A DNA stretch of 64,000 nucleotides from Nanobdellota archaeon. Its GTDB lineage: Archaea > Nanobdellota > Nanobdellia > Woesearchaeales > UBA9642. The translations under genes were made by a program, and so were the position numbers. Positions 44,904-60,358 of the stretch are shown here, piece by piece. Where the stretch lies: contig JAKAKR010000013.1 in assembly GCA_021813435.1 (NCBI GenBank), positions 1 to 64,000 of the forward strand, read 5' to 3'. The notes beneath the pieces are model-generated. The model worked only from the letters and a program-made list of their open reading frames with translations, made no database searches and had not been told where the DNA came from. The first letter of the stretch is position 1. Every line of letters begins with the position of its first letter.

Positions 44904-46532
44904 TTATTTTTTGCATGCCTTGACAAATCCGTCAAATAATGGCGCAGGTTTCAGAAGCGATGACTTGAATTCTGGATGCGCCTGTGTCGCAACAAAGAAT
45001 TTGTGATTTGACAGTTCAATAAATTCTACAAGCGATCCATCAGGGCTCATGCCTGAAAAGATGAGTCCTTTTTCTTGCAATACTGCATGATACGCAGGAT
45101 TGACTTCATAGCGATGACGATGACGCTCAAACACTATCGCAGCGCCGTATAATTGGTGGACCAGTGTTGCAGGCTTCAAATGCGCAGGATACGCGCCAAG
45201 CCGCATAGTCCCGCCCTTTGCATGGATTGCCTTTTGTTCAGGCAGAATATCGATGACAGGATTTGTGGTGTGATCATTGATCTCAGAACTATTCGCATCA
45301 TGCAAACCGCAGACATTGCGCGCAAACTCGATGACTGCCATCTGCAATCCATAGCATAACCCTAAGAAAGGGATATTGTGCTCGCGGCAATACTGGATTG
45401 CCTTCATTTTTCCCTCAACACCCGTTCCCCCGAATCCGCCCGGGATAACAATCCCATCAAAGGATGAAAGAAGCGCAGTCATATTAGCGCCAGGCTCTTC
45501 CAATTGCTTGGAGTCCATCCAGGTGAGGTGCAGTTTAAGGCAGTATTTTGCGCAGGCATGCTTTAATGCCTCATTGACTGAAAGATAGGAATCTGCGAGC
45601 TGATATTCGCCGATATTGAAATATTTTCCAATCATTGCAATACGCACTGACCCTTCAGGATGCGTGATACAGTCAACAGTATGCGACCAGTCTGCAAGTG
45701 AAGCACCATTCTTATGCTCCAGATGCAATGATTCAAGAATTTTCTCTCCCAATCCTTCTTTTTGCAGATCAAGTGGCACTACATAGACAGTGTTTGCAGT
45801 GCCTTTGCCGATAACATCAGGCATTGAGATGATGTGGGATGATTTGATGTTCGAGTATTCAGCGATCTTTTTCTTGCGTACTTCATCAAGGGCATTTTTT
45901 CCGCGGCAGAGAACAAAATCCGGCTGGATACCATTCTCGCGCAGCAACTTGATGGATAGTTGTGTCGGCTTTGTCTTCATCTCATCAATATGGCTTGGGA
46001 TCGGCAGGTAGGTCACAAGGATATAACAGATGTTTTCCTTGCCGATCAGTGTCTCAAGATTGCGCAATGCAAAAAGAAATGCCGTATTCTCGAAATCGCC
46101 CACAGTCCCGCCAATCTCTACGAGCGCGATATCATAATCCCTGCTCGATTCAAGGATGCGATTTTTGATCTCGTCAGTGATGTGCGGGATGAATTGGACT
46201 GTGTGACCCAAGAATTCTCCCCGACGCTCTTTTTCAATCACTGCCCGGTATACTTGCCCGGTCGTGATATTATTTTTTTTAGGGATCGACTCGCCCAGAA
46301 ACCGCTCATAGGTCCCCAGGTCCTGATCAGTCTCACCGCCATCGTCAGTAACCCAGACCTCGCCATGCTCTGTCGGGCGCATGGTGCCGGCATCACAATT
46401 GATGTAGGGATCGATCTTTATTGCAGTAACACGATACCCATATTCCTTCATGATCCGTCCAATGGACGCAGTGGCAACTCCCTTGCCGACTCCAGAAATA
46501 ACCCCGCCTGCCACGACAATGAACTTTGTCAT
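44904..46532 (-). CDS. pyrG: CTP synthase
   Basis: MTKFIVVAGGVISGVGKGVATASIG…DPYINCDAGTMRPTEHGEVWVTDDGGETDQDLGTYERF…PFLGLCYGLQ. Confidence 0.97.
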   Translation of the reverse strand: MTKFIVVAGGVISGVGKGVATASIGRIMKEYGYRVTAIKIDPYINCDAGTMRPTEHGEVWVTDDGGETDQDLGTYERFLGESIPKKNNITTGQVYRAVIEKERRGEFLGHTVQFIPHITDEIKNRILESSRDYDIALVEIGGTVGDFENTAFLFALRNLETLIGKENICYILVTYLPIPSHIDEMKTKPTQLSIKLLRENGIQPDFVLCRGKNALDEVRKKKIAEYSNIKSSHIISMPDVIGKGTANTVYVVPLDLQKEGLGEKILESLHLEHKNGASLADWSHTVDCITHPEGSVRIAMIGKYFNIGEYQLADSYLSVNEALKHACAKYCLKLHLTWMDSKQLEEPGANMTALLSSFDGIVIPGGFGGTGVEGKMKAIQYCREHNIPFLGLCYGLQMAVIEFARNVCGLHDANSSEINDHTTNPVIDILPEQKAIHAKGGTMRLGAYPAHLKPATLVHQLYGAAIVFERHRHRYEVNPAYHAVLQEKGLIFSGMSPDGSLVEFIELSNHKFFVATQAHPEFKSSLLKPAPLFDGFVKACKK

Positions 46533-46638
46533 GGAATAATTCACGCAACAAAGATATATAAAAATATTTTGATTAAGCATACACTCCGCATAAAATAAAA
46601 AGCAAATTTATAAACTGACTAAAACTTTTGAAAAACAT

Positions 46639-46730
46639 GGGCGGGTAGTTCAATCCGGCAGAACGTCCCGTTGGCTATACTCTCAATACTGAAATCGGGA
46701 AGGCTCCGGGTTCAAATCCCGGCTCGTCCA
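46639..46730 (+). tRNA. Intron-containing tRNA, most consistent with tRNA-Phe(GAA) with an 18-nt non-canonically placed intron
   Basis: Acceptor GGGCGGG/CTCGTCC, D-arm GTTC/GAAC, anticodon stem TCCCG/CGGGA, 25-nt loop that becomes TTGAAAT after removing 18 nt, T-arm CCGGGTTCAAATCCCGG. Confidence 0.7.
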
Positions 46731-46815
46731 TTATGCCTATTGGGTCAGATTGCAGGGACAGTGGCGTTGTGGTCCACTTTACTGTGACACCTTCCTCTTT
46801 GTTTGTCGACTATAA
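46720..46815 (+). repeat. Left-arm direct repeat copy 1 (attL-like), starting in the tRNA 3' end
   Basis: CGGCTCGTCCATTATGCCTATTGGGTCAGATTGCAGGGACAGTGG…TTTGTTTGTCGACTATAA; about 85/96 identical by hand to 55921-56016. Confidence 0.85.
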
Positions 46816-47154
46816 AGTGACGAGATTGTATTGCATTTTCACCACTCCTTTTATAAATCATGCGAGCTATAAGAGGAGTATGAGGACTATTTTAACTAAT
46901 AATTCTGGGCAACAAGAAGTTGACCCCTACAATACTCGCGGACATTACGAAATTTGGTTAAAGAGCATTACCAAAGATGGCGGTATTGATTATTATACAT
47001 GTAAAAATATTTCTAGAGAAGGAAGCGAATGTATTACAAAATATATTCTTGATTTGTACTATGGAAGAAATTTAGCCAGAGGAACACGAAAGGGTCGCCG
47101 AAGTTATAATCATTTAGTTAATACTCGTACACGATTACAAAAAATAGTAAACTA

Positions 47155-47729
47155 CCGCGGGCTGAAGCCCGCGGCGTTCAGGCGTAGGCGAGCAGCGTTT
47201 GTTGAGGCATTCGCGTATGATTTTCCCAGTGCTTCTTCTGACTCTCTGCGACGTATATCCTTACGGTTTCAGCGGTGACGACTCCAACAGTACGATAGAA
47301 GTATCCCGCAGTCCAGAATTTGTCACCCCAGAGTTTGTCCTCGAACAAGTAAGCGTAGTCACGACGGAGGGCGCGGCTAATCGCGCCCTTAAATCGCTGC
47401 GCGAGATCAGCAATTCCCCATCGCTTCCAGTTCGTGATGAACAAATGGGCATGGTCAGGACCATAGTCAAGGGCTGCAAGAGTCACGTCGAGCTTACGCG
47501 CCTGTTCAATGAACAGGCTCGTCACGATATCGCGCAAAATACGCGACTCAAACACGCCACGCCGATAGGCAGGCGTGAACTGCAAGTGCAGGTTCGATTC
47601 ACCCACAGTGTGGGCACTGGCCAGTAAGACGTTCGCACTCATGTTAGCCACCTCAGAAAGTTTTTTATTCTTAGCCAACATAGCTCCCGCTATGTTGATC
47701 TTTGGTTTCGAGCCGGCAACGGCTCGAAA
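47155..47729. mobile_element. IS200/IS605-type element (tnpA only) inside cassette A
   Basis: Terminal hairpins CCGCGGGCTGAAGCCCGCGG (47155-47174) and TTTCGAGCCGGCAACGGCTCGAAA (47706-47729) flanking a tnpA ORF. Confidence 0.65.
47178..47681 (-). CDS. tnpA: IS200/IS605 family TnpA transposase
   Basis: LHLQFTPAYRRGVF…ALDYGPDHAHLFITN…KFWTAGYFYRTVGVVTAETVRIYV. Confidence 0.88.
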   Translation of the reverse strand: MLAKNKKLSEVANMSANVLLASAHTVGESNLHLQFTPAYRRGVFESRILRDIVTSLFIEQARKLDVTLAALDYGPDHAHLFITNWKRWGIADLAQRFKGAISRALRRDYAYLFEDKLWGDKFWTAGYFYRTVGVVTAETVRIYVAESQKKHWENHTRMPQQTLLAYA

Positions 47730-47776
47730 TCCAAGGTTTCTGAGTAAAAGGTATAGAAAAAGATGACGATACTATC

Positions 47777-47840
47777 CGCGTTTCAGCACGCTTTTCATCT
47801 CCGGACTGAAGCCCGGCAAGGGTTCAAGCGTGGAAACGCG
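47777..47840. other. Long near-perfect hairpin next to the IS
   Basis: CGCGTTTCaGCACGCTT … CAAGCGTGgAAACGCG with an inner CCGG…CCGG hairpin. Confidence 0.55.
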
Positions 47841-47871
47841 CCCTAAAAAAATTCGCAGAAAACTACTAAAA

Positions 47872-48249
47872 CTATTTCTTACTAACTTTATTCATACCGT
47901 CAACAACCAATTTAATTAATATAACAACAAGTCCAACCATAAATAGGAAATAAATTCTATATAATCCCTCAAGAGCGAAGTAAATTAAAATGAATATACT
48001 TGCAAATACGCCAGTCCAATAACCAATCTTAAAAGATTGCCGATACATTGCATATTTCTGTCTCCAATCAAAAAACCACCAAATAACAAATAAAATAATA
48101 GCAGCGCCCAATATCGGAAGAATATAATGCCAACATAAAGACCAATCAGTAGGAATTAAATTTTTAGAAACATCAAAAGACAAAGGAGCAATAATTCCTG
48201 ACAAAATACTTGCACAAATATTGTTTACTATTTCCCGAGTCAGAGTCAT
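47872..48249 (-). CDS. Small membrane protein
   Basis: Three hydrophobic segments. Confidence 0.5.
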   Translation of the reverse strand: MTLTREIVNNICASILSGIIAPLSFDVSKNLIPTDWSLCWHYILPILGAAIILFVIWWFFDWRQKYAMYRQSFKIGYWTGVFASIFILIYFALEGLYRIYFLFMVGLVVILIKLVVDGMNKVSKK

Positions 48250-48391
48250 AACTGCCTAATTGTTCGCGCGATATAAATAGTTTATGTTTAATGGTCCAAA
48301 AGCGCAAACCAACACCAAATAATAAAACGATATCGGAATAAAGCCAATAAATGCGTAATTTAATCTAGCCAAATGTTTCTCTAAGGAGATG

Positions 48392-48650
48392 CATACTTCC
48401 GGGCACTATTTAGGCTAGATTTTTATTTATGCCTCGTCGTAAAGTGCGTGAATATTGGCTAGATTCAGGCTATAGGTCGACCATATAATAACGGGCAACA
48501 TTTAGGGTCTTAAAACGGCAGAAAACGCAGAATTCTGCAAGATAAGGCGAAAAACTGGCTCTTGGCGACGAGCGTATGGACGAGTAAAATCCGCCAGGTT
48601 TACGGGAGGCGGTAGGACATACTTCCGGGCAAAAAACACGCCAGATTTTT
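48392..48650 (+). repeat. Pair of ~33-bp imperfect direct repeats (48392-48424, 48618-48650)
   Basis: CATACTTCCGGGCA…GCYAGATTTTT in both copies. Confidence 0.55.
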
Positions 48651-48673
48651 CCAGAACTCATCGACGATGACCT

Positions 48674-49351
48674 ATGGAATTGTCCGCCGGATTCTCGCCA
48701 GACTCGCCACCGGCGATGAAGAAAAATATGAAAATATTATTAAGCGGGCATAAAATTAATAAATACTATCGAAATAAGAAAAATATGGTTTTCAAACACC
48801 CACACCGGTACGGACTTATGTTAATGGTCTCTAAAAAAAATTATGCTCATTTAGAAAAATACAAAGCAGAATTAGATCCATACATAAAATTTTATATGAA
48901 ACCAGATTTTTTTGATGATATAGCGCCACAACACATTTCTATATGTTATTTTAGCTATCCAGAAAAATATCCTGAAGAAATTGCTTCAAAATTGGTCCCA
49001 AAAATTAACACAGTTATAAAAAAACACCTGCCACTAAAAATTAAAATAAAAGGCCTAATGGGTGGTTGGGAGATTGGACTGGGCGCACCCGCAATACTGT
49101 GGAATATCATTTCATTCGATAACATTAATACAGTGCACCACGAGATAATAGCTGCACTTAAGAACGACATAGAACATTTTAATGATCCGGAAACCGACTT
49201 TACACCACATATAGGTATAGCGTTAGGAAAAGCGGAAGATACAACAATTCTTAAAGAAATTATTGAGAAATCAAAAAACGATCCAATAATTGAATTGACA
49301 ATAGATCGTGTATATATCTTTTATCCGAATGGACCTAAACAGATATTCTAA
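48674..49351 (+). CDS. 2H phosphoesterase superfamily protein (LigT/2'-5' ligase-like)
   Basis: Two H-x-[ST/G]-x motifs, PQHISICYF and FTPHIGIALG, at appropriate spacing. Confidence 0.6.
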   Translation: MELSAGFSPDSPPAMKKNMKILLSGHKINKYYRNKKNMVFKHPHRYGLMLMVSKKNYAHLEKYKAELDPYIKFYMKPDFFDDIAPQHISICYFSYPEKYPEEIASKLVPKINTVIKKHLPLKIKIKGLMGGWEIGLGAPAILWNIISFDNINTVHHEIIAALKNDIEHFNDPETDFTPHIGIALGKAEDTTILKEIIEKSKNDPIIELTIDRVYIFYPNGPKQIF

Positions 49352-50156
49352 CAGTATGAACATATTTTTGTTCAAAATAAACAATTTCAGAAATATTTCT
49401 CTTCTGGAGTTCAGTTATAATTAACGGAATATTCTTTCCAATAGTCGCAGGTTCGTGAGCGTCAGAACCTAAAGTTAATTTTACGTCAAGATTATTCGCT
49501 AACGTAATTAAATCAAAGTTAGGATATGATTCGCCTAAATGATGATTTTTTTTACTGTCTGTTAAAGGATCGTACATGTCTTTAGTAAGTCCAGAACAGT
49601 TTATTTCATAACCAACGTTATGTTTTTTACAAAGCTGTAATATTTCTAAAAAAGAATCTATTACTTGAGTGGGTTTTATCCCCGCTCTCAAAATAATATC
49701 AGGATGAGCTAATGCCGTATACATATTTGATGTTATAGCATTTTTTAAATAAGTAAAATAAGTATTAACCACTACAGGATTTTTGAATTGCTCAAAATCC
49801 CAAACACTAATTTTATCTTCATTAACATCAATAAAGTGTACTGATCCATATACGAAATCTAATTCATTTGATAAAATGATATTTTTTATAAATTCTTCAT
49901 GCAAGGGAGAATAATCCATTTCCAGTCCTGCCAAAATTTTTATATAAGAGGAATATTTTGAACGCATAATATTGATTTCTAATAAATATTCTTTTGTTTC
50001 TTCAATATTCATTCGATTTTCACAATCAAATGGCAATGGTCCATGTTCAGAAAATCCGATTATTTCTAAATTCTTATCGATAGCACTAAGTATGACTTCT
50101 TCTATATCGCCTATACCGTGATGCGATCGTTTGGTGTGTATATGACAGTCAATCAT
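49335..50156 (-). CDS. PHP-domain phosphoesterase (histidinol-phosphatase-like)
   Basis: MIDCHIHTKRSHHGIGDIEEV…GFSEHGPLPF…LAGLEMDYSP…VYGSVHF…LGSDAHEP. Confidence 0.88.
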   Translation of the reverse strand: MIDCHIHTKRSHHGIGDIEEVILSAIDKNLEIIGFSEHGPLPFDCENRMNIEETKEYLLEINIMRSKYSSYIKILAGLEMDYSPLHEEFIKNIILSNELDFVYGSVHFIDVNEDKISVWDFEQFKNPVVVNTYFTYLKNAITSNMYTALAHPDIILRAGIKPTQVIDSFLEILQLCKKHNVGYEINCSGLTKDMYDPLTDSKKNHHLGESYPNFDLITLANNLDVKLTLGSDAHEPATIGKNIPLIITELQKRNISEIVYFEQKYVHTVRISV

Positions 50157-51190
50157 TTTAACCCCTTGATTGTCTTTAAAAATAATTCAGGATATTTTTC
50201 AGATATTACTCGCACAACCCAATAAGGATTATTTATTTTCTCAATATCTCTGGCGATAATTTTATGAGTATTCAATTTAGAAATAATTTCTTTGAATGAT
50301 CGATTATATAGTTTATTTATAATTTCATTATGTTCGACTTCTTGTAGTAATTTATTAATAGATAATTCATCAAAAAAAATATTTCCTACGGATTTGTATT
50401 CTATTCCATAAAAGAAAATATCGCCAGTATTTTTTATAGTGATATCCAATCCTTTTTTTTGTTCGGAAATATGCCCCATTGTAAAAGGAACACCATTTTT
50501 ATTTTCCAACAAGTTGATATAGTCTAACATAGGAAACAAGTGTTTATTGAAGGCACCATTATTGTTTACTATGTTCTTATAATGTATGATTATTTCTTTA
50601 TCATGCATATGTACCGCATCAACCAATGGAGACCGTTCTTCAATTAGTGGGCTATTATCTATAGTTGAAAGTATTTTATAGATATGAGTTCGTGTAGCGT
50701 TTTTATATTCCAATAGCCCTCTAACTGCAATACTAACTTTGTTTGAATTAGAATTTAGATGATATTTAAAAAAATCTACATAGTTACGCATATCTATTTG
50801 AGAAATATGAAATGGATCGATACTTAATCGAATAGAATAGTAATCATTTTTATCCAAGGATTTTTGTTCCAGGGTACTGAGATAATCTTGAATTGCTACA
50901 TCCCACCCGCCATTAGTAATAATTTGAAAAGAATTATTGCCTGTTGATAGATCCAAAATTTCATTTATGCAATCAAAGTTTTTCGAGGGCTCTCCTTCTC
51001 CGCTAAGAACTACTAACCCCGTATCATCGTGATTAATGATATTTGAAACATTTTTTCTCGAATAATCATTCAATTTTAAATGAAGCGGTACATCCGTATG
51101 CTTATCTTTGTACATGCAGATCTTACAAGTTAAATTACATTCATCAGTTACATCAAAATATACTAAATGATTAGTTAATTTATTGTCCAT
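50153..51190 (-). CDS. Radical SAM protein
   Basis: DVTDECNLTCKICMYKDKH (CxxxCxxC), LSGEGEPSKNF. Confidence 0.9.
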   Translation of the reverse strand: MDNKLTNHLVYFDVTDECNLTCKICMYKDKHTDVPLHLKLNDYSRKNVSNIINHDDTGLVVLSGEGEPSKNFDCINEILDLSTGNNSFQIITNGGWDVAIQDYLSTLEQKSLDKNDYYSIRLSIDPFHISQIDMRNYVDFFKYHLNSNSNKVSIAVRGLLEYKNATRTHIYKILSTIDNSPLIEERSPLVDAVHMHDKEIIIHYKNIVNNNGAFNKHLFPMLDYINLLENKNGVPFTMGHISEQKKGLDITIKNTGDIFFYGIEYKSVGNIFFDELSINKLLQEVEHNEIINKLYNRSFKEIISKLNTHKIIARDIEKINNPYWVVRVISEKYPELFLKTIKGLK

Positions 51191-52385
51191 TGGCCATGAC
51201 CTGTATTAATTTTTGTGCATCTTTTCTCATTAAAAAATCAAAAGGGATATAAATTTTATTTTCGTCTATTTTCGATATTCGTCCCAAGAAAAAAACATAT
51301 TTATCTAAACGCACATCTGAAATAGTTTCGATTACAGATTTTGTTTCTTGCGGCAATTTATTAACATTCCACTCGGATCCAAGAGATATCTGTTGAATAT
51401 TATTTAACAAGTTGCTAAATTCAGACATATAACTATGGCGAATATTTGCATAAATAGAATAACCAGTCTGTTTATTGGGCAATATATTGATCTGTACAGG
51501 CTTATCTTTGTCTAATCCTGCTTGTAAAAAATAGACCAACAACCGATAATTATCTGTAGATATATTTTGAGTAAAATTAAATTTTTTTTCGTGAGAGTCT
51601 ATAAATCGTTCAATACTTGAATGATGGTTTTTTGCCGCAAGGATAATATTATTAAACGTGTTTGGAGTTGTATACTTAAAACTTTTAATTAGACCGTCAT
51701 AAATATAATCATGCGGTGTATCGAATAAAGTATAAAATTCAGAAGGAAATTCCACTGTTTGAAACATAGTAGAAGAGTTTTCAGCAATAGAAGTAAAATT
51801 ACTTAACTTTTTAATCACCGCATCATAATTTCCGACATGAGTTATAGCCATCTCTGCTGCGGGACCAACAACACCATATACTTCTGATCCTGCGATATTA
51901 AATCGTTTTAAAAAACTTTTTAGTTGTTTTATTTCAAATAATTGTTGTTTTGAAAATTGAAAATATGTGCTGTCATCCATATCCCATTTCCATTTATCTT
52001 TAACGACATCACAGATCGTAAAATCAAAATTAATAGTGTTATGCACACCGGAAATTCTATGACCTGCAAAATAAATTTCATTAAAATGTGAAGTAATCCG
52101 TTTATAAAAATCAATACTAAAGAGTTGACATCCCTCGAACAAATTACTAGTATAAGCAATTTTTGTTATTAAGTCACTATTGGCTTCTAAAATAAGATCA
52201 ATGTCCCATTTAGAAATAGCTGGCGGTAAGGAAGTTCCTCGAGCTAATGAACCGGTTCTTTTGATAGTAACATCTTCAGAATATTCTTTTTTAAAAAAAG
52301 TCTTTAATCTGCCAACTAATTCATTACTGGTATTATCAATAAAAGTTTGTTCGTTTTTGTTTAATTCAAAAAGAGTATTTGACAT
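51180..52385 (-). CDS. CCA-adding-like class I nucleotidyltransferase
   Basis: TGSLARGTSLPPAISKWDIDLILEAN; downstream FLKRFNIAGSEVYGVVGPAAEMAITHVGNYDAVIKKLSNF resembles the archaeal CCA enzyme segment. Confidence 0.7.
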   Translation of the reverse strand: MSNTLFELNKNEQTFIDNTSNELVGRLKTFFKKEYSEDVTIKRTGSLARGTSLPPAISKWDIDLILEANSDLITKIAYTSNLFEGCQLFSIDFYKRITSHFNEIYFAGHRISGVHNTINFDFTICDVVKDKWKWDMDDSTYFQFSKQQLFEIKQLKSFLKRFNIAGSEVYGVVGPAAEMAITHVGNYDAVIKKLSNFTSIAENSSTMFQTVEFPSEFYTLFDTPHDYIYDGLIKSFKYTTPNTFNNIILAAKNHHSSIERFIDSHEKKFNFTQNISTDNYRLLVYFLQAGLDKDKPVQINILPNKQTGYSIYANIRHSYMSEFSNLLNNIQQISLGSEWNVNKLPQETKSVIETISDVRLDKYVFFLGRISKIDENKIYIPFDFLMRKDAQKLIQVMANGQ

Positions 52386-52386
52386 C

Positions 52387-53760
52387 TTATAATTTAAATG
52401 ATCTTACAAAATTTTCCATCTTTTTTTGTTCTCGCATGAGTATATCATTAGGAATATTTGACACATTAACGGTCAACTCATATGCATCTTTAAATGAAAT
52501 TTTTGAAAGTATTTGGTCTATTGAAGGAAGCGAATCTTTATTCCTATTATATAGTTCTGAACCAGGGTAAGGTGTTGCAAAATATATTGCTCCAAAATTG
52601 TTGAATCCTCTCTCAAAAAATTCTTTCTCATTAGATTTTTGTAAAGTTTTACCGTATTGTATTAATCGCTGAAAGAACCGGTAGTTATCTTCAATATTCA
52701 TCATAGTTTCATTATCATATCCGATGATAATATTCGGAACAGGATAAATTCCTGCTTCAACACTTAATTTGAATGCATTAAAATTATCATCTAACGTCAT
52801 TTTTTTATTCATCCTCAGTAAAGTATTTTCGCTACCGGAATCAAAGCCATAATAAATATAGTCACATCCTGCACTTTTAATCTCTTTTAAAATTTCTGCA
52901 TCCACCGATGTTGATCTTGCAGCGATTCCCCACCTAATATTACGATTCAATTTTTTTAATTCTTCGCTTAGTGCATAAACTAATTTTTTATTGGTTAAAA
53001 AAGATTCATCCATAAAGCTTATAAAATCAATATGGTATTTTCCAATAAGTTCAGTTATTTCTCCAATGACATTATCTGTTGAACGATATCGTATTACTTT
53101 TCTTCCAAGAGTGTTAGAACAAAAATCGCAGTGATAAGGGCAACCTCTCGAGGTTAACACATTCCCTCGTCGAGATGCACTTTGAACATTCGGAGATAAA
53201 GGAAACGATTTATTCTCAAAATATCTTTCTAAATTAAGTAAGTCAATATCAGGATAAGGGATATCATCTAGTGTTTTGATAAACTCTTCATTAGGATTTC
53301 GTTTTATTCCTTGATCTGTCCGATAGGCAATACCCTTAACAGAATCAAGACTCCCAGTTAGATTTTTCATAAAAGATAGTACACTTTTTTCTGCTTCTCC
53401 AATAAATAATACATCTAATTCAGGAACTAATTCTAGTAACGCAATATCTGCAGAACTCGCCAATCCTCCTCCAGAACCAACAATTGCAGCAGGATTTGCT
53501 TTTTTGATGGTTTTAATAGCATTTTTTTGATATTCATAAGTTGTTACAAGCCCAGACAAACCTATAAACGAATAATTAGATTCAGCAACTACTGAATACA
53601 GTTCAGCGGTTGTTTGAAAATTTCCATCAAAATAATCTACAGAATATCCATTATTACGCAAAATCGAACTAATAATTCCTATACCATAAGGATAATGCCG
53701 TGGTGGCTCCGACTGCCTATTGGGAGAATTAATGAGCAGTACTTTATTCATCAATAACAC
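52387..53760 (-). CDS. B12-binding-domain radical SAM protein
   Basis: N-terminal Rossmann-like PYGIGIISSILRNNGYSVDYFDG…IGEAEKSV; SRGCPYHCDFCS. Confidence 0.88.
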   Translation of the reverse strand: MLLMNKVLLINSPNRQSEPPRHYPYGIGIISSILRNNGYSVDYFDGNFQTTAELYSVVAESNYSFIGLSGLVTTYEYQKNAIKTIKKANPAAIVGSGGGLASSADIALLELVPELDVLFIGEAEKSVLSFMKNLTGSLDSVKGIAYRTDQGIKRNPNEEFIKTLDDIPYPDIDLLNLERYFENKSFPLSPNVQSASRRGNVLTSRGCPYHCDFCSNTLGRKVIRYRSTDNVIGEITELIGKYHIDFISFMDESFLTNKKLVYALSEELKKLNRNIRWGIAARSTSVDAEILKEIKSAGCDYIYYGFDSGSENTLLRMNKKMTLDDNFNAFKLSVEAGIYPVPNIIIGYDNETMMNIEDNYRFFQRLIQYGKTLQKSNEKEFFERGFNNFGAIYFATPYPGSELYNRNKDSLPSIDQILSKISFKDAYELTVNVSNIPNDILMREQKKMENFVRSFKL

Positions 53761-54256
53761 CTCTGATAAATGGATCTAATTGTGTAAATAGTGCTTCTGT
53801 TGAAGCATCATTTATCACCCAATGATCTACGTGTTCAGATAAGAGTTTTCCTAATCCCAAGCTATAATCTGCGCATAATTTTTTATAAAAATCTATAGGA
53901 GAAAGACACTCGTTATCTCGTTTTCTGCTATTATACCTATTAAGACACAATTCATCTGCTGAGTATATCCCTATAGTTTTTACTGATCCAATTTGTTTAA
54001 TACAATCCAATTCTTGAACTGTTCTGAATCCAGATATAACCGCATCAATATCTTTATGTAATGATTTTGATATTTCCTTTGCTACATAATCCATGCCTAA
54101 TTTTAACAATAACGCTTCACTATTTACAATTCCAGTACGTGTTTTTGCGTTGTTAATAAAACTGCTAGCCTCATACCCTATAAACCCATTTGCTTCAAAG
54201 TATTCTCGAGCAGTAGTCTTGCCGCTTGCCGATTTTCCAATTAGCACATAGATCAT
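53744..54256 (-). CDS. P-loop nucleotide/dephospho-CoA kinase-like protein
   Basis: MIYVLIGKSASGKTTAREYFE Walker A. Confidence 0.75.
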   Translation of the reverse strand: MIYVLIGKSASGKTTAREYFEANGFIGYEASSFINNAKTRTGIVNSEALLLKLGMDYVAKEISKSLHKDIDAVISGFRTVQELDCIKQIGSVKTIGIYSADELCLNRYNSRKRDNECLSPIDFYKKLCADYSLGLGKLLSEHVDHWVINDASTEALFTQLDPFIRGVIDE

Positions 54257-55227
54257 TTTGTTTCAATTCGCATTCCGAAATTATTCGGTTTAGTTATATA
54301 AATAAATGAATATTCAATGTCACTATTTTTTTCTAATCTCAATGCAATGTCTTCCAGATTATCCCCAAAGGCATACACTGCCGGGCCTATACTACTCATA
54401 CCTATCCCTTCAGCGCCTAAGCGATGCAATTTTTTTATAGTATCAACTACGCTGCTACCGTAGATAGTTATTTCATTTTTTTTCCAGACACGGTCTTGCA
54501 GTGAGTTTATTCCTTTACAAAAGGTATATCTGTCACCTTCACAAATCGCGGGAAGTATTTGTGATAATGTAATTCTTGCACTTTTTTCTACATCTGTTCG
54601 GGGAACAGGACATATTTTTTGAAAAAATTCAATCTCTTTTTGACCGTACATATGTACAGTTTTTGGGAGAGCAACTAACACATTCCAATCAGGCATAGCA
54701 TATCTTGCAAGAATTGGTGCAAGCGTAACAGTTTTAGCAGCAGACGAAGGGATAAATTCTTTTTTGTATTTAGTTGAATGTCCTCCTTCCAAAATGAATC
54801 CCCCTTTATCAATAAGGTTTATTCCTAATCCAGATGTTCCACCCCTTTTTACTTGTTGAGCAATCTGACACATATCTAAATTTAAATCATACAATTTTCC
54901 AAATGCATAGATAACTGATAAAAGTGTTGCTGTTTTTGAACCAAATCCTGAATGTTCAGGAATAGTATCAATAAGAGTTATTTCAACACCATTTGTTTTA
55001 TACTGATGCGCAATCTCAGTTAAAACAGTGAGTAATTTCGAAGATAGTTCCGAATTCACATAATCTTTATTAATAATGCTAAACTGATCATTCTTTTTAA
55101 TCTCGAATTCCAATTTAGGGTTATCGATAGAAAAACCCATACCACCATCTACCCGTCCAAGGTTTCCATTCATATCATATAAATTTATAGCTATACGTGA
55201 TGGTACTGTACAGTGTAATGTTGTCAT
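54253..55227 (-). CDS. GHMP-family protein resembling beta-ribofuranosylaminobenzene 5'-phosphate synthase (COG1907-like)
   Basis: PSRIAINLYDMNGNLGRVDGGMGFSI, EHSGFGSKTATLLSVIYAF, RGGTSGLGINLIDKGGFILEGGH. Confidence 0.75.
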   Translation of the reverse strand: MTTLHCTVPSRIAINLYDMNGNLGRVDGGMGFSIDNPKLEFEIKKNDQFSIINKDYVNSELSSKLLTVLTEIAHQYKTNGVEITLIDTIPEHSGFGSKTATLLSVIYAFGKLYDLNLDMCQIAQQVKRGGTSGLGINLIDKGGFILEGGHSTKYKKEFIPSSAAKTVTLAPILARYAMPDWNVLVALPKTVHMYGQKEIEFFQKICPVPRTDVEKSARITLSQILPAICEGDRYTFCKGINSLQDRVWKKNEITIYGSSVVDTIKKLHRLGAEGIGMSSIGPAVYAFGDNLEDIALRLEKNSDIEYSFIYITKPNNFGMRIETK

Positions 55228-55622
55228 TTTTTACCTGTTGCAGCATATTCGCTATCAAGGATAATACATATATAATATCCCGATCCACTAATAACATTTG
55301 CTGAATGTAGAGTATCTTTAGGTATCCAAATGTTGCTTGGGGATTTTATCAAATATTCTTCATTCTCAAAACAAATCTTATACTCAACATTACCAAGTAA
55401 AATATTTATTTCAGGGACTGTATGTTTATGTAAGTTAACATACTCTTGAGGAATTGTATTTACAGCAGAAATAACATGAATCGCTGCATGAACAGGAAAA
55501 TTCTCAGATATGTATCTATCAATACACAAGGTATTGCTATGAAAAGGAACGCCATCTAGCGGCGCATTTTTTAGAGCATAAATATATTTCGAATAATCTT
55601 TTTTCTCAGGAACATTATCCAT
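55224..55622 (-). CDS. Cupin-domain protein
   Basis: VNLHKHTVPEINILLGN…YLIKSPSNIWIPKDTLHSANV. Confidence 0.8.
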   Translation of the reverse strand: MDNVPEKKDYSKYIYALKNAPLDGVPFHSNTLCIDRYISENFPVHAAIHVISAVNTIPQEYVNLHKHTVPEINILLGNVEYKICFENEEYLIKSPSNIWIPKDTLHSANVISGSGYYICIILDSEYAATGKK

Positions 55623-55761
55623 AGTACCACTACTTAATAGATAAGCTCAAGGATTTATTAACTTTTCGTTAGATTTTCGTAAAAATTCCGGATAGAATCT
55701 TTAAAAGATGTATTACATTCTCCGAGTTTCTTTTTTATTTTTTGTGAGCTTTATTGATTAT

Positions 55762-55902
55762 ATGGAATCTTACAAAATTTTAATTGACGTCGAGAAGTTT
55801 AAAGAAATATTAATTTACAGTTGGCATTTATTACCGCTGGAAAAACAGCAAGAACTCATAAATATCGGAGTACACCCGCAAAGGACCGTCCCTAAATTCT
55901 GA
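55762..55902 (+). CDS. Small hypothetical protein at the right end of cassette A
   Basis: MESYKILIDVEKFKEILIYSWHLLPLEKQQELINIGVHPQRTVPKF; C-terminus runs into the right-arm repeat. Confidence 0.3.
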   Translation: MESYKILIDVEKFKEILIYSWHLLPLEKQQELINIGVHPQRTVPKF

Positions 55903-55935
55903 CCTACGAGAACTCACACACGGCTCGTCCATGAT
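55878..55935 (+). repeat. Right-arm direct repeat copy 1
   Basis: GCAAAGGACCGTCCCTAAATTCTGACCTACGAGAACTCACACACGGCTCGTCCATGAT; about 46/58 identical by hand to 60301-60358. Confidence 0.8.
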
Positions 55936-56016
55936 GCCTATTGGGCCAGATTGCAGGGACAGTGGCTCTGTGGTCCACTTTGCTATGGCACTTCGTTCTT
56001 TGTTTGTCGACTATAA
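55921..56016 (+). repeat. Left-arm direct repeat copy 2 (internal att junction)
   Basis: CGGCTCGTCCATGATGCCTATTGGGCCAGATTGCAGGGACAGTGG…TTTGTTTGTCGACTATAA. Confidence 0.85.
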
Positions 56017-56021
56017 CATGT

Positions 56022-56486
56022 TTAATTCGTATTCTGTTGTATTCGATGTCTGATAATATCTTTGGGTGAATTTTTGAGAAAGCCTTTTTTTGAGACAACG
56101 TTGATATGCTGTATCTCTGCATCAGGAGCGATTTGTCTTTTATACTCATCCAAATCTTCGAGCGATGCAAATCCCGTTATGAGAATGTGTGTAATGATCG
56201 ACTCATTTATTTCGAATGCACCGATGATGTGTTCATTATTGAGAATGTGTCTATTTATGACCTTAAGTTGTATAATCGCAAAAACATGTATCCCAATTTT
56301 TTCATAATCGACCATGGCCCTGTACTCTTTAATGTAGTGATCCTCGAGCTTTTTTCTGATCTTTCTTACACCGGGTGGCGTAATCTTTATCTTAGACGAT
56401 ATTTTCGAATCAGTCATTCGTGCGTTGTCTAATAATGCGAGAAAGACTTTTCGATCATTACTCGTCAACCGACGTTCAGTACTCAT
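56022..56486 (-). CDS. Lrp/AsnC-like transcriptional regulator
   Basis: LTSNDRKVFLALLDNARMTDSKISSKIKITPPGVRKIRKKLEDHYIKEYRAMVDYEKIG; start at MSTERRL inferred. Confidence 0.75.
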   Translation of the reverse strand: MSTERRLTSNDRKVFLALLDNARMTDSKISSKIKITPPGVRKIRKKLEDHYIKEYRAMVDYEKIGIHVFAIIQLKVINRHILNNEHIIGAFEINESIITHILITGFASLEDLDEYKRQIAPDAEIQHINVVSKKGFLKNSPKDIIRHRIQQNTN

Positions 56487-56518
56487 ATATAACTTAACAT
56501 TCAATAATAGTTTAAATA

Positions 56519-56549
56519 GTTAACGAATATTTTATTAATACGTGTTAAC
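56519..56549. promoter_or_regulatory. Operator-like dyad in the lrp-like/hydG intergenic region
   Basis: GTTAACGAATATT…TAATACGTGTTAAC; TATA-like TTTAAATA at 56511-56518. Confidence 0.45.
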
Positions 56550-56560
56550 AGGTTATATTT

Positions 56561-57961
56561 ATGAACCAAAATACGTTTATTAATGCAACAACCATTGAAA
56601 ACCTATTAACGAGACATATAAATTCTTCACCTCAAAAAATTGATGATATTCTCGCAAAGGCTTTAGAACTTAAAGGATTAGATATTGAAGATGCGGCAAC
56701 ATTAATCACTATCTCAGATAAAGACCAACTAGAAAAAATTTTTCAGACTGCATTAAAAATTAAGGATGAAATTTATGGTAATAGATTAGTACTTTTTGCT
56801 CCGCTTTATGTGTCGAATCATTGTGCTAATAACTGTTTGTATTGCGGTTTTCGACACGATAATAAAGATATGAAACGCATATGCCTAAATATTGATGAAG
56901 TAAAAGATGAGACTAGGATAATACTTGAAGAAGGTCATAAGCGGATATTGATGCTCATGGGCGAGCATCCTGCAAAGTGTAGTTTCGAATATTTTTTAGA
57001 GACAATAGACGCCGCATATGCAGTGAAAGACTCTAAAGGATCCTCTCTGCGAAGAGTAAACATTGAGATTGCTCCGCTCAGCGATGTACAATTCGCAGAG
57101 TTAAGCCATATACCTATCGGCACGTATACCTGTTTTCAAGAAACATACCACGAAGAAACGTACAAGAAGATGCATCCTTCCGGCAAGAAATCCCATTATG
57201 ATTGGAGATTGAATGTTATGGATCGAGCATTAAAGAATGGTTTGCACGATGTCGGGATCGGGGCATTATTTGGATTGTACGATTATCGATTTGAGGTATT
57301 AGCGTTATTGCAGCACGCAAAACATCTAGATGAAACATATCGTATAGGACCACACACGATATCTGTTCCAAGAATTGAATCTGCGCAGAATGCTCCGGCA
57401 TCACGCATCGTTCCTCATCCCACGGCAGATACAGATTTTAAAAAGATTGTTGCGGTACTGCGATGTGCCGTGCCTTATACCGGCATAATCCTGTCAACAA
57501 GAGAATCACCGACCATGAGAAATGAATTATTTCATCTAGGAATTTCACAGATAAGCGCAGGTTCAAGAACAAGTCCTGGCGGCTATGCGAATGCTATGAT
57601 TAATTCTACAGTGCAAGAACAATTCAGTGTGAACGATACGCGAAGTACAGGTGAAGTGATACGTTCAGTTATTGAACAAGGATTTGTGCCTTCATTCTGC
57701 ACGGGATGTTATCGACGTGGAAGAACCGGTCAAGACTTTATGGAGTTAGCAAAGCCCGGGCTTATCAAAGCACATTGTCTTCCCAATGCACTCCTGACGT
57801 TAAAAGAATACTTAAAAGACTATGCTGATGAAGAGACCAGAATTTGGGGAGAGAATATTATTAAAAAAGAGTTATTACATATCCCGAGTAAAAACCGCAT
57901 GAAGAAAACCGAAGAATATCTTAAACAGGTGGAGAATGGTAAACGAGACCTTTACTTCTAA
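56561..57961 (+). CDS. hydG: [FeFe]-hydrogenase maturase HydG (radical SAM tyrosine lyase)
   Basis: SNHCANNCLYCGFRHDN (CxxxCxxC) and C-terminal CTGCYRRGRTGQDFMELAKPGLIKAHC = CX2CX22C, diagnostic of HydG. Confidence 0.93.
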   Translation: MNQNTFINATTIENLLTRHINSSPQKIDDILAKALELKGLDIEDAATLITISDKDQLEKIFQTALKIKDEIYGNRLVLFAPLYVSNHCANNCLYCGFRHDNKDMKRICLNIDEVKDETRIILEEGHKRILMLMGEHPAKCSFEYFLETIDAAYAVKDSKGSSLRRVNIEIAPLSDVQFAELSHIPIGTYTCFQETYHEETYKKMHPSGKKSHYDWRLNVMDRALKNGLHDVGIGALFGLYDYRFEVLALLQHAKHLDETYRIGPHTISVPRIESAQNAPASRIVPHPTADTDFKKIVAVLRCAVPYTGIILSTRESPTMRNELFHLGISQISAGSRTSPGGYANAMINSTVQEQFSVNDTRSTGEVIRSVIEQGFVPSFCTGCYRRGRTGQDFMELAKPGLIKAHCLPNALLTLKEYLKDYADEETRIWGENIIKKELLHIPSKNRMKKTEEYLKQVENGKRDLYF

Positions 57962-59033
57962 CATATCAAAAAGTTGGATGCGTGAAGCATTAACTGCGCG
58001 GGGTGATGAACAAAGAAAATTACATCAACGCGCAGCAGATATCAGAGATAAAACTGTTTCCCGCGCAGTATACTTTAGAGGACTAATCGAATTTTCTAAT
58101 AAGTGTATCAATGATTGTTTGTATTGCGGGATACGAAAATCAAATAATGCAGTGAAAAGGTATATGATGGACAAAGAGGAAATTTTGGATGCAGTAGAAT
58201 TCTGCGAGAGAGCTGGTTACGGGTCCGTTGTGCTACAATCTGGAGAGCAGAAGAATAAAAAATTTACTGGATTGATAAGTAGTATTGTCGGGGATATCAA
58301 AAAAAAATTTCCAAAGATTAGTATCACATTATGTGTTGGAGAACAAGAAAAGAGTGTATATCAAGAATTTTTTGATTCAGGCGCAGAGCGGTATTTATTA
58401 CGTATAGAAACCTCTAATGCAGAACATTACAAAAAATTACATCCGAAAGAAATGAGTTTTAGTGAGCGATATCGATGTCTTAATGACCTTAAAAACATTG
58501 GATTTCAAGTGGGTACGGGAGTCATGGTTAATGCTCCATCACAAACACTTGATATGCTTGCTGAAGATATATTATTCTTTAGAGAGATCGATGCGGATAT
58601 GATTGGTATGGGCCCCTATATCCCCCACTCCAAAACACCGCTCTATATAACAATAATTAATAAAACTGAGAGCTTAAATCTCACATTAAATATGATTGCA
58701 TTGACGAGAATCATGATGCCAGATGTTAATATCGCTGCAACCACTGCACTGCAAGCGCTACATCCTAAAGGGAGAGAGCTTGGTCTTCTGAGCGGCGCAA
58801 ATGTGATTATGCCATTAGTTACGCCAATCCATTATCGTAATAATTACGTATTATATGATGATAAGCCATGCCGTAATGAATCTTCTCTACAATGCGCTAA
58901 TTGTGTTACTGAAAGGATATATGCAATCGACCTTGTCCCTAAACATCGTGTAACCGGCGATTCGCTCCACTATATAAATAGGATAACATCGCATCATGTA
59001 AATGAAGGCAAGGGAGTAGATAATGATAGTTGA
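57936..59033 (+). CDS. hydE: [FeFe]-hydrogenase maturase HydE (radical SAM)
   Basis: RGLIEFSNKCINDCLYCGIRKSN, VLQSGEQ, YLLRIETSNAEHYKKLHP, GMGPYIPHSKTPL. Confidence 0.93.
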   Translation: MVNETFTSNISKSWMREALTARGDEQRKLHQRAADIRDKTVSRAVYFRGLIEFSNKCINDCLYCGIRKSNNAVKRYMMDKEEILDAVEFCERAGYGSVVLQSGEQKNKKFTGLISSIVGDIKKKFPKISITLCVGEQEKSVYQEFFDSGAERYLLRIETSNAEHYKKLHPKEMSFSERYRCLNDLKNIGFQVGTGVMVNAPSQTLDMLAEDILFFREIDADMIGMGPYIPHSKTPLYITIINKTESLNLTLNMIALTRIMMPDVNIAATTALQALHPKGRELGLLSGANVIMPLVTPIHYRNNYVLYDDKPCRNESSLQCANCVTERIYAIDLVPKHRVTGDSLHYINRITSHHVNEGKGVDNDS

Positions 59034-60291
59034 ACGGGATCATATCGGGATATTTGGAAAGATGAATGCAGGAAAGAGTAGCATCATGAATTTACTGACT
59101 CAACAATCGTCGTCCATTGTCGATTCAACACCAGGAACAACGACTGATTCTAAGATTATACTGCAAGAAGTTCACGGGATTGGACCGATTAAACTGTATG
59201 ATACTGCAGGCATTGATGAACAAAGCATTTTAGGACAGAAAAAAAAGCTGAAGGCCTATGCCGATCTAAAAGAATGTGATCTCATTATTGTCGTTATCGA
59301 TCCATCTACTGAACGTGTTGATCACGAAAAAGATATCATCACCCACGCTAAAACATTGGATAAACAAGTGTTGATTGTATACAATATTTTTGATCCAGAA
59401 CATGAGAAAAATATTCCTATACTAGAAAAAAATATTCCCAAAATCTCAACGTATAATCGTCTAACGATAAAAGCAATAGATTCAACGTATCGGATGCCAC
59501 TTATAGATTTTATATGTGAGCATTTTGATTCACAATATAAGAACATTGAGTTATTGCCATTTCTCCAACAGGGTGAACAATATATGTTAATTATTCCAAT
59601 GGATGTTGAGACTCCGAAAGGGCGGTATTTGAGGCCGCAGGCAATGGTTGAAGAGTATATTACACGAAATTGGGCATATCCCTTATCATTCAGGCTGGAT
59701 CTTACAAAGGCGCGAAGCAGAGATCTTGAACACATCATAGAACAAGATCGTTTCATTTCAGTTATGGATTCATTTAAGAAGCGTCCACATGCAGTTATTA
59801 CTGACTCCCAAGCAATCGATATCATGTACCAATGGGTTCCGGAAGATATCTTGCTCACCACGTTTTCTATTACCATGATTAATTATACGAGTAGGGGGCG
59901 ATTACAACAATTTGTTAATGGCATAAATGCACTTCGCAAATTAAAATCAGGGGATACGGTGCTTATTGCTGAAGCATGCAATCATTCACGAATTGGAGAA
60001 GATATCGGTACAGTGCAAATCCCAAATTTTTTGGATAAAAATTTTCCTGAAGTCAAGTATGAACATGCATTCGGAAAGGTTTTCGGGGATGATTTGGCAA
60101 AATATCAGCTGATCATACATTGTGGAGGTTGCATGATGAGCCCACAAAAACAGTTAGCACGAATACGAGATATTGAACACGTAAACGTACCGGTCACTAA
60201 CTATGGAATGTTCTTATCATATATTCAAGGAGAAAAAGCATTACAACGAGTGCTAAAACCATGGGGCATAACCTACAATCTCCGAGATTAA
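59023..60291 (+). CDS. hydF: [FeFe]-hydrogenase maturation GTPase HydF
   Basis: GKMNAGKSSIMNLLTQQ, VDSTPGTTTD, IKLYDTAGIDE; C-terminal CNHSRIGEDIGT…HCGGCMM cluster-binding motif. Confidence 0.93.
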   Translation: MIVERDHIGIFGKMNAGKSSIMNLLTQQSSSIVDSTPGTTTDSKIILQEVHGIGPIKLYDTAGIDEQSILGQKKKLKAYADLKECDLIIVVIDPSTERVDHEKDIITHAKTLDKQVLIVYNIFDPEHEKNIPILEKNIPKISTYNRLTIKAIDSTYRMPLIDFICEHFDSQYKNIELLPFLQQGEQYMLIIPMDVETPKGRYLRPQAMVEEYITRNWAYPLSFRLDLTKARSRDLEHIIEQDRFISVMDSFKKRPHAVITDSQAIDIMYQWVPEDILLTTFSITMINYTSRGRLQQFVNGINALRKLKSGDTVLIAEACNHSRIGEDIGTVQIPNFLDKNFPEVKYEHAFGKVFGDDLAKYQLIIHCGGCMMSPQKQLARIRDIEHVNVPVTNYGMFLSYIQGEKALQRVLKPWGITYNLRD

Positions 60292-60300
60292 CAACATATG

Positions 60301-60358
60301 GCAAAAGACTATTCCCTAATGCTAACCTACTCGCACTCACACACGGCTCATCCATGAT
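60301..60358 (+). repeat. Right-arm direct repeat copy 2 (terminal attR-like)
   Basis: GCAAAAGACTATTCCCTAATGCTAACCTACTCGCACTCACACACGGCTCATCCATGAT. Confidence 0.8.

Follow-up and report, generated by a model that had tools for sequence, protein, structure and literature searches.

Tandem integrative elements at a tRNA-Ala gene of a DPANN archaeon, probably accreted by one tyrosine-integrase family, with a [FeFe]-hydrogenase maturation operon as cargo

In the 64,000-nucleotide stretch of DPANN archaeal DNA analysed here (the window), an intron-containing tRNA-Ala(GGC) gene is followed by two cassettes in tandem, A (9.2 kb) and B (4.4 kb). Diverged copies of the tRNA 3' end, together with left-arm and right-arm repeats, separate A from B and close B. 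The features of the locus are as follows.

46639-46730, + strand: tRNA-Ala(GGC), intron in the anticodon loop (Rfam RF00005, 53.5 bits)
46720-46734, + strand: J1, attL core of cassette A, CGGCTCGTCCATTAT
46731-46832, + strand: left arm of A; GGTCA, a family-wide motif, occupies +13 to +17 past the tRNA end
46880-47152, + strand: 5' stub of a tyrosine integrase gene, 91 codons (similarity to integrase N-termini)
47153-47860 (approximate borders), no strand: REP-flanked IS200/REP-type insertion, at the point where integrase homology ends
47178-47681, - strand: Y1 (IS200-like) transposase of the insertion (PF01797, 7.7e-23)
47872-48249, - strand: small membrane-like ORF, no family
48674-49351, + strand: 2'-5' RNA ligase-superfamily protein (PF13563, 9.7e-7)
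49335-50156, - strand: A operon, PHP/HisJ-like phosphatase (PF02811, 2e-19; TIGR01856)
50153-51190, - strand: A operon, divergent radical SAM protein (weak TIGR04317/TIGR04084 matches)
51180-52385, - strand: A operon, nucleotidyltransferase-like (weak tRNA_NucTransf2 and SMODS matches, under cut-off)
52387-53760, - strand: A operon, B12-binding radical SAM protein (PF04055, 7e-24; PF02310, 1.7e-12)
53744-54256, - strand: A operon, possible P-loop kinase (AAA_18, E=0.0011, under cut-off)
54253-55227, - strand: A operon, beta-RFAP synthase-family protein, GHMP kinase fold (TIGR00144, 273 bits, over cut-off)
55224-55622, - strand: A operon, small protein, no significant family (best AraC_binding, E=0.22)
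55762-55902, + strand: terminal small ORF of the element family, 46 aa, its stop TGA inside the right-arm TGACC motif
55878-55920, + strand: right arm of A, its TGACC ending 27 nt ahead of the final core base
55921-55935, + strand: J2, attR of A and attL of B, core CGGCTCGTCCATGAT
55936-56033, + strand: left arm of B; the motif at +13 is GGCCA, differing from GGTCA by one base
56022-56504, - strand: cassette B, Lrp/AsnC-like winged-helix regulator (PF13412, 1.2e-5; its G002 orthologue adjoins hydGEF)
56561-57961, + strand: cassette B, hydG (TIGR03955, 511 bits)
57936-59033, + strand: cassette B, hydE (TIGR03956, 383 bits)
59023-60291, + strand: cassette B, hydF (TIGR03918, 329 bits)
60301-60343, + strand: right arm of B; TAACC replaces TGACC; residual terminal-ORF tail QKTIP*
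60344-60358, + strand: J3, attR of B, core CGGCTCATCCATGAT

The left-arm repeat (46720-46832 against 55921-56033) is 83% identical over 113 bp and 89% over its first 96 bp (E=7.6e-30, searched against the whole 1.41-Mb genome), close to the 88% or so that a first-pass annotation had estimated for a 96-bp block. The right-arm repeat (55878-55935 against 60301-60358), described there as a 58-bp block of about 79% identity, is indeed 79% identical, and its local alignment score was matched by none of 500 dinucleotide shuffles. The arms do not behave as an ordinary dispersed repeat: core plus left arm and right arm plus core each occur twice in the genome, and a left-arm 21-mer, allowing up to three mismatches, found only chance-level matches across 352 further genomes of the order. 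Each core is short, at 11-15 bp, and both A (33.6% GC) and B (37.8%) are lower in GC than the flanks (43.4% and 46.4%).

The integration target (attB) is the tRNA-Ala(GGC) gene, whose 3' end is regenerated. ARAGORN made no call here because of the intron; the sequence itself and the intronless orthologue in a relative, G349, gave the anticodon GGC and the G3:U70 pair. The site is unoccupied in three congeners (G001, G002 and G003), which belong to the same genus as separate species rather than as strains. The tRNA gene adjoins alaS in G001 and G003, with no cassette genes in between, and in G002, where extra sequence is inserted in the T loop, it lies directly before alaS. These unoccupied sites, and the recurrence of the same arms, cores and tandem order in independent relatives, with an architecture that extends to other families of the order, bear out the earlier proposal of two stacked integrations at one attB, in which the 55.9-kb junction serves as attR of A and attL of B. 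G002 also carries the regulator and hydGEF, without arms. Taken literally, it is the related genome with the same genes and no repeats that the first-pass annotation had named as counter-evidence, but the att-site evidence stands, and the armless operon tells us no more than that this cargo can exist without a cassette.

Cassette A retains the beginning of an integrase gene. Pfam and PHROG scans of the stub by itself were uninformative at first, and its identity was obtained through full-length relatives, with a PHROG integrase match and, in hhalign, 99.4% to PF00589 integrases; the subfamily scores below the detection limit of Pfam Phage_integrase. The stub is 48-52% identical (E about 1e-27) to the N-termini of tRNA-adjacent integrases of about 415-425 aa, whose intact genes, in related Woesearchaeota, are found 94-172 bp downstream of a tRNA. 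It occupies the usual place of the family, beside attL, with the att core outside it, 150 bp upstream of its start. The insertion that follows has hairpins GGGCTGAAGCCC at 47159 and GGACTGAAGCCC at 47803 and a GC content of 52%, against 32% in its surroundings. No C-terminal remnant was found at attR or anywhere in the window, which also lacks an intact integrase gene next to attL and outside the att core. The earlier statement that no integrase is recognisable is correct for B, which has none, and has to be withdrawn for A. Elsewhere in the genome, where the first-pass annotation had proposed to look, a 94-residue N-terminal query against the 96%-complete assembly found no cognate full-length integrase, so A and B are non-autonomous here; the search met no second homologue of this integrase. 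The genome's two other tRNA-adjacent integrases (contigs C7 and C15) were rejected as partners in trans: the arm motif is missing beside their tRNAs, and neither of them matches the stub in sequence. The integrase family was also sought in IMG/VR and not found there.

The attachment sites follow a fixed geometry, in which GGTCA starts exactly 13 nt past the last base of the tRNA and the inverted TGACC has its end 27 nt ahead of the final core base. GGTCA at +13 recurs in the flanks of 11 integrase-adjacent tRNAs, which none of 2000 shuffles reproduced, and in none of 12 other tRNA flanks, while TGACC keeps its 27-nt distance at four right ends and is one or two changes off in two more. The arms at J1, J2 and J3 agree in motif and spacing with the integrase-linked sites of G144, G349 and G147, where the integrase gene is intact and lies next to attL, outside the att core. 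We infer that the arm motifs are putative integrase binding sites. Cassette B has one change each in its left motif, right motif and core and therefore, judging from sequence, may be immobile. Two other interpretations of the arms were rejected: as RNA or folded attC sites they show no folding beyond that of shuffles (z -0.2 to 1.2), and as terminal inverted repeats they are unconvincing, since between 45 and 358 of 1000 shuffles scored as high as left arm versus reversed right arm. Viral and phage collections contained no arms; when the right-arm pattern was relaxed, many chance matches appeared, and all of them lacked both GGTCA at +13 and the small ORF.

That terminal ORF of about 46 aa is intact in A, and only its tail is left in B. 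Homologues lie at the right ends of elements in G138, G349, G047 and G144, and the ORF is found at five right ends with E 1e-11 or better. Codon-position differences of 64/23/124 mark it as coding and under purifying selection; a structure model of moderate confidence predicts two helices. In the G349 tandem an intact integrase gene is followed by right arm-core-left arm, and on a second contig of that genome a 64-codon integrase stub follows the same arm. Integrase-less cassettes occur in G047 (about 1.4 kb, a single Fic-like gene) and G138 (0.87 kb, one cargo gene plus the terminal ORF); as GGTCA is missing at +13 in their left arms, both may be remnants. The suggestion of an integrase-less cassette family fits these 0.9-1.4 kb members but not the family as a whole, which is integrase-bearing (G144, G349, G147), and loss by decay is therefore at least as likely as primary integrase-lessness.

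In the cargo of A, the product of 54253-55227, over cut-off for TIGR00144, scores under the equivalog cut-off of NF040726, and a "cupin" label for 55224-55622 was dropped at its E of 0.22. Conjugation families had no match among the cassette ORFs scanned; the intact relatives are visible only partly, as their contigs end. Between the att ends of B lie exactly one regulator gene and the hydG-hydE-hydF operon, and homology to the armless G002 operon spans 56032-60276, ending no more than 25 bp from each arm. HydE, HydF and HydG all exceed their NCBIfam equivalog cut-offs, and the operon is a three-gene kit for assembly of the [FeFe]-hydrogenase active site. The hydrogenase itself, HydA, is encoded outside the cassettes (G000:C7:164950, motifs MPCTAKKFE and EIMACYGGCIGGGG), and HydGEF presumably matures this chromosomal enzyme. 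A hydrogenase large subunit is present in 11 of 60 relatives, HydG scores over its family cut-off in only 3 of the 60, and the same 3 have HydE at E <= 1e-40. With so few relatives holding HydG and HydE compared with the hydrogenase, a mobile maturation kit bears on the cofactor supply of archaeal hydrogenases.

We conclude that the locus very probably consists of two related integrative elements, a decayed A and a CIME-like B, brought together by tandem accretion through tyrosine integrases of a DPANN family that targets tRNA genes. The enzyme would read the final bases of the tRNA as an 11-bp core, with GGTCA/TGACC arms in inverted orientation on either side of it at fixed spacing. Such recognition of core and arms would therefore leave an inserted element in the order tRNA-left arm ... 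right arm-core, with the regenerated core open to a second element. A would have arrived with its own integrase gene beside attL, of which 91 codons persist, the REP/Y1 transposase insertion lying at the break, and would have retained the tiny terminal gene of the family beside attR. B would have lost its integrase or never had one, and nearly all of its terminal gene would be gone. The order of the integration events and the loss of the integrase by decay are reconstructed from this anatomy, and any further movement would probably use the integrase of an incoming relative in trans.

Another possibility, which we consider rather unlikely, is that B and the G047 and G138 cassettes belong to a class that is integrase-less by design, made of core, arms, terminal ORF and cargo and always moved by the integrase of another element. 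It could be likened, with about the same reserve, to satellites or to integron cassettes whose integrase lies elsewhere. Integrase-less cassettes in three genomes, only 0.87-1.4 kb long in G138 and G047, speak for it, as do a terminal ORF under purifying selection where the integrase is gone and a cargo in B that almost exactly fills the space between the arms. However, the 5' integrase stubs in A and in the second G349 element point to decayed integrase-bearing parents, B has lost the terminal ORF as well, and the missing left motif makes G047 and G138 possible remnants.

Casposon-like or other transposition at the tRNA 3' end would turn the cores into target-site duplications and the arms into terminal inverted repeats of an element that has since lost its transposase, and cores of 11-15 bp and the inverted GGTCA/TGACC motifs do have that look; it is nevertheless very improbable, given that the ends have no convincing inverted similarity, that Pfam met neither Cas1 nor another transposase family apart from the internal Y1 among the cassette ORFs scanned, and that the integrase stub lies on the attL side, where intact relatives adjoin the same arm motif. 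Still less credible is SSV-type (suicidal) integration, with att inside the integrase gene and the stub as the normal N-terminal half left at attL: A does have only an N-terminal fragment there, but the core lies outside it, integrated relatives keep complete genes at the same place, and the C-terminal counterpart is found neither at attR nor elsewhere in the window. We give equally little credence to a local duplication of the tRNA end beside ordinary chromosomal genes. The armless hydGEF and regulator of G002 would suit it, whereas two distinct arms in strict order at three cores, three unoccupied congeners, low GC, the stub and the recurrence of this architecture across other families of the order argue against it.

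Returning to accretion by an integrase family, we also consider a broader and distinctly tentative idea, namely that DPANN archaea have a two-part system in which small cassettes of core, arms and 46-aa gene depend on rarer full-length relatives, whose tyrosine integrase moves them in trans, and form arrays at tRNA-Ala. The 46-aa end gene would then perhaps be a directionality or targeting factor needed in cis, and such arrays would deliver metabolic modules such as hydrogenase maturation. Little is known of gene gain in DPANN archaea with their reduced genomes, and the family described here can be recognised by its att geometry, by its terminal ORF and by a divergent integrase that escapes Pfam; one member carries a complete [FeFe]-hydrogenase maturation kit.

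Compared with known systems, the locus resembles archaeal integron cassette arrays and CALINs (PMC9668308) in having integrase-less cassettes that could be moved by an integrase in trans, but its arms lack attC-like folding, its core lies at a tRNA end and there is no IntI. As far as the relevant parts of PMC8371274 and, for Thaumarchaeota iMGEs, PMC6563490 describe them, archaeal class II (lambda-like, non-suicidal) tRNA elements share the tRNA 3' target, short cores (8-11 bp for some), an integrase gene at one end, tandem integration and integrase loss; the same sources report excision of TKV4 of Thermococcus by an exogenous integrase. Unlike those elements, the integrase subfamily here falls below the Pfam Phage_integrase detection limit, and the terminal small ORF and fixed GGTCA/TGACC geometry have no counterpart in those portions of the two accounts. 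The ssrA islands of Dehalococcoides (PMC3146451) are likewise tandem site-specific islands at one RNA gene with short direct repeats between them, an integration module in only some and a metabolic cargo operon (vcrABC), although they use a serine recombinase and tmRNA, here replaced by a tyrosine integrase and tRNA-Ala in a different phylum. The nearest term is the CIME (cis-mobilizable element), known in tandem accretion with ICEs and IMEs and outlined in PMC5704250 with reference to Streptococcus thermophilus ICESt work. As that outline has it, a CIME keeps attL and attR, has lost its integration genes and is stacked on a related element at a tRNA gene 3' end, joined at a shared att site; at our locus attL and attR of a known integrase system are present, and the integration genes are gone from B and reduced to a stub in A. 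In contrast to the CIMEs of that outline, these elements are archaeal, have no conjugation genes visible in the cassettes, and carry a terminal small ORF beside attR and a hydrogenase maturation operon as cargo.

Empty versions of this tRNA site, which the first-pass annotation had proposed to look for in related genomes, are found in three congeners, G001, G003, and G002. The gene order in G001 is kept without the cassettes (helicase, homologues of genes 43730 and 44529, the tRNA, a homologue of gene 60430, and alaS), and alaS lies directly after the tRNA in G003 and in G002, where the tRNA has inserted T-loop sequence. The GC contents of cassettes A and B (33.6% and 37.8%) contrast with the higher values of the flanks (43.4% and 46.4%). 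A CTP synthase gene (44904-46580) lies between gene 44529 and the tRNA and is absent from that place in G001, so the upstream side of the tRNA is likewise rearranged.

Features at the tRNA site and in cassette A
46639-46730, tRNA-Ala(GGC), located by Rfam and typed by direct reading
46880-47152, 91-codon integrase stub, 150 bp after the tRNA, from protein homology
47178-47681, Y1 transposase, at the break of the integrase frame
55762-55902, 46-codon terminal ORF, with its 3' end inside the right arm of A

The target tRNA is detected by Rfam and missed by ARAGORN because its anticodon loop holds an intron; direct reading shows the G3:U70 identity pair, and the counterpart in G349, a relative of the order, is intronless with the loop CTGGCAG. 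The orthologous tRNA-Ala of G002 (locus L050, about 8993-9199) has an anticodon-loop intron plus ~95 extra nt within the T-loop, after GGGTTCAAA, which look like a second intron or an insertion. The left-arm and right-arm repeats noticed by eye are genuine, far over chance level, and the concern that they might be dispersed repeats can be set aside: they are absent elsewhere in this genome (G000; 1.41 Mb in 16 contigs, 96% complete, with the window on a 203-kb contig), and the 352 other genomes of the order give matches at chance level alone. The 79-89% similarity between copies rules out both an assembly artefact and a recent duplication.

The claim that no recombinase is recognisable does not hold for cassette A, which contains the 5' part of a tyrosine integrase gene. 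The stub matches the N-termini of ~415-425 aa proteins in the relatives G144, G349, and G147 at 48-52% identity (E about 1e-27); in these three genomes the full-length gene starts 94-172 bp downstream of a tRNA. The N-terminus of a G150 protein matches at 35% identity. The full-length G349, G147, and G150 proteins give PHROG integrase hits (best 1.6e-11 to 3e-6), and a four-sequence profile of full-length proteins aligns with two PF00589 integrases at 99.4% probability; Pfam itself does not flag the full-length family integrases. The stub ends at about 47153, at the start of a REP-like hairpin and the Y1 transposase, and no C-terminal integrase remnant is found anywhere in the window. The suggested search of the rest of the genome, with the stub as query, gave no other homologue in G000. 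Among one-per-species public genomes, the family integrase is present at 22 loci, nearly all in DPANN archaea, and it was not found in IMG/VR. One locus, L099, comes from a bin assigned to the bacterial Omnitrophota, which may reflect mis-binning or cross-domain transfer. G000 has two more tyrosine integrases, each directly downstream of a tRNA 3' end (contig C7, L054, 15463-16622; contig C15, L055, 8271-9617, with a helicase and defence-like cargo after it); these tRNAs are different ones, the flank sequences differ, and the arm motif is absent.

Aligning 11 integrase-adjacent tRNA flanks, we found the five most informative columns at positions +13 to +17, counted from the tRNA end, a signal reached by none of 2000 shuffles. 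The closest relatives show GGTCA there, as does the left arm that follows the core at the tRNA 3' end (J1), with GGCCA after the core at the A/B junction (J2); the +13 motif occurs in 0 of 12 other tRNA flanks. In the right arms of J2, G138, G349, and G144, the end of TGACC is always exactly 27 nt ahead of the final core base, with the variants TGCCG in G047 and TAACC at the far end of B (J3). GGTCA and TGACC, putative integrase binding sites, are inverted and symmetric around a position 7 nt into the core.

The terminal ORF has homologues at the element right ends in G138, G349, G047, and G144 (E 1e-11 or better), and its remaining matches are at chance level. Its differences by codon position (64/23/124) argue that it is translated and constrained. 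Cassette B retains the tail alone (QKTIP-stop). The predicted structure has two helices, and the ORF may be an accessory in recombination; a review of archaeal tyrosine recombinases (PMC8371274) states that the archaeal integrases tested needed no directionality factor, which counts against this role.

The same layout is seen in other relatives. G349 has the tRNA, an intact integrase, ~9 kb, the terminal ORF, right arm, core, and a further left arm, which is a tandem arrangement. A second G349 contig starts at the core and continues with a left arm that is nearly identical and then with an integrase stub of 64 codons, which shares 95% identity with the intact G349 integrase. The G047 cassette (~1.4 kb) contains one Fic-like gene, named from the HPFRDGNGR motif read directly, plus the terminal ORF, and that of G138 (0.87 kb between two cores) contains one 172-aa gene plus the terminal ORF. 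Thus, integrase-less and integrase-stub members recur. The integrase-bearing element of G144 (C12, L074, 3944-5540; L127, 1-774) has an RT-like ORF, an RT-16 RNA, and two 81-bp repeats with 11 differing positions, all 11 being A in one copy, and so looks like a carrier of a diversity-generating retroelement; RT-16 RNA is also near family integrases at loci L086 and L091.

Family and profile searches identify a seven-gene operon in cassette A, encoding a beta-RFAP synthase-family protein, a B12 radical SAM protein, a second, divergent radical SAM protein, a nucleotidyltransferase-like protein, a possible kinase, a PHP phosphatase, and a small unassigned protein, plausibly a small-molecule pathway. 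Short direct intergenic repeats CATACTTCCGGGCA...AGATTTTT of this cassette lie at 48392-48424 and 48618-48650, and locus L075 has three 40-bp repeats of similar style spaced ~190 bp. Cassette B encodes a winged-helix regulator and hydG, hydE, and hydF, all three hyd genes over equivalog cut-offs. It is 75.4% identical over 4.25 kb (56032 to 60276) to a G002 operon that adjoins a pgk-like gene without arms, and the homologous segment stops no more than 25 bp from either arm. HydA, with L2 and L3 motifs, is encoded at C7:164950; HydA and HydE are both absent from G001 and G003. HydG over cut-off and HydE at E <= 1e-40 occur in the same 3 of 11 HydA-bearing relatives, G000 counted (G000, G002, and G018). 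PF02906 hydrogenase large subunits, with L2/L3 active-site motifs where readable, occur in eight genomes of the order (G009, G011, G019, G026, G037, G041, G045, and G054), all of which lack both HydG over cut-off and HydE at E <= 1e-40.

In the most likely scenario, family elements enter at the last 11 bp of a tRNA gene via their own integrase and regenerate the tRNA, and a second element then takes the core regenerated next to the tRNA or that at the far end, giving tRNA-A-B. The integrase of A would have been broken later, and B would either have lost both its integrase and its terminal ORF or have been put together without them; further movement would require the integrase of an incoming relative. 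A limited literature search found nothing on this specific integrase/element family, a result that supports novelty only weakly. At RNA genes, tandem integration, loss of the integrase, and metabolic cargo are already known singly. For TKV4 of Thermococcus, an archaeal element with a broken integrase, excision by an exogenous integrase is reported in PMC8371274, and a general cycle in which decay to a CIME precedes accretion is described in bacteria (PMC5704250). The closest functional parallel carrying metabolic cargo is the ssrA islands of Dehalococcoides (PMC3146451). What is new here is a family of elements in DPANN archaea, marked by its att geometry and terminal ORF and by the recurrence of integrase-less members, together with the carriage of a complete hydGEF operon as cargo.
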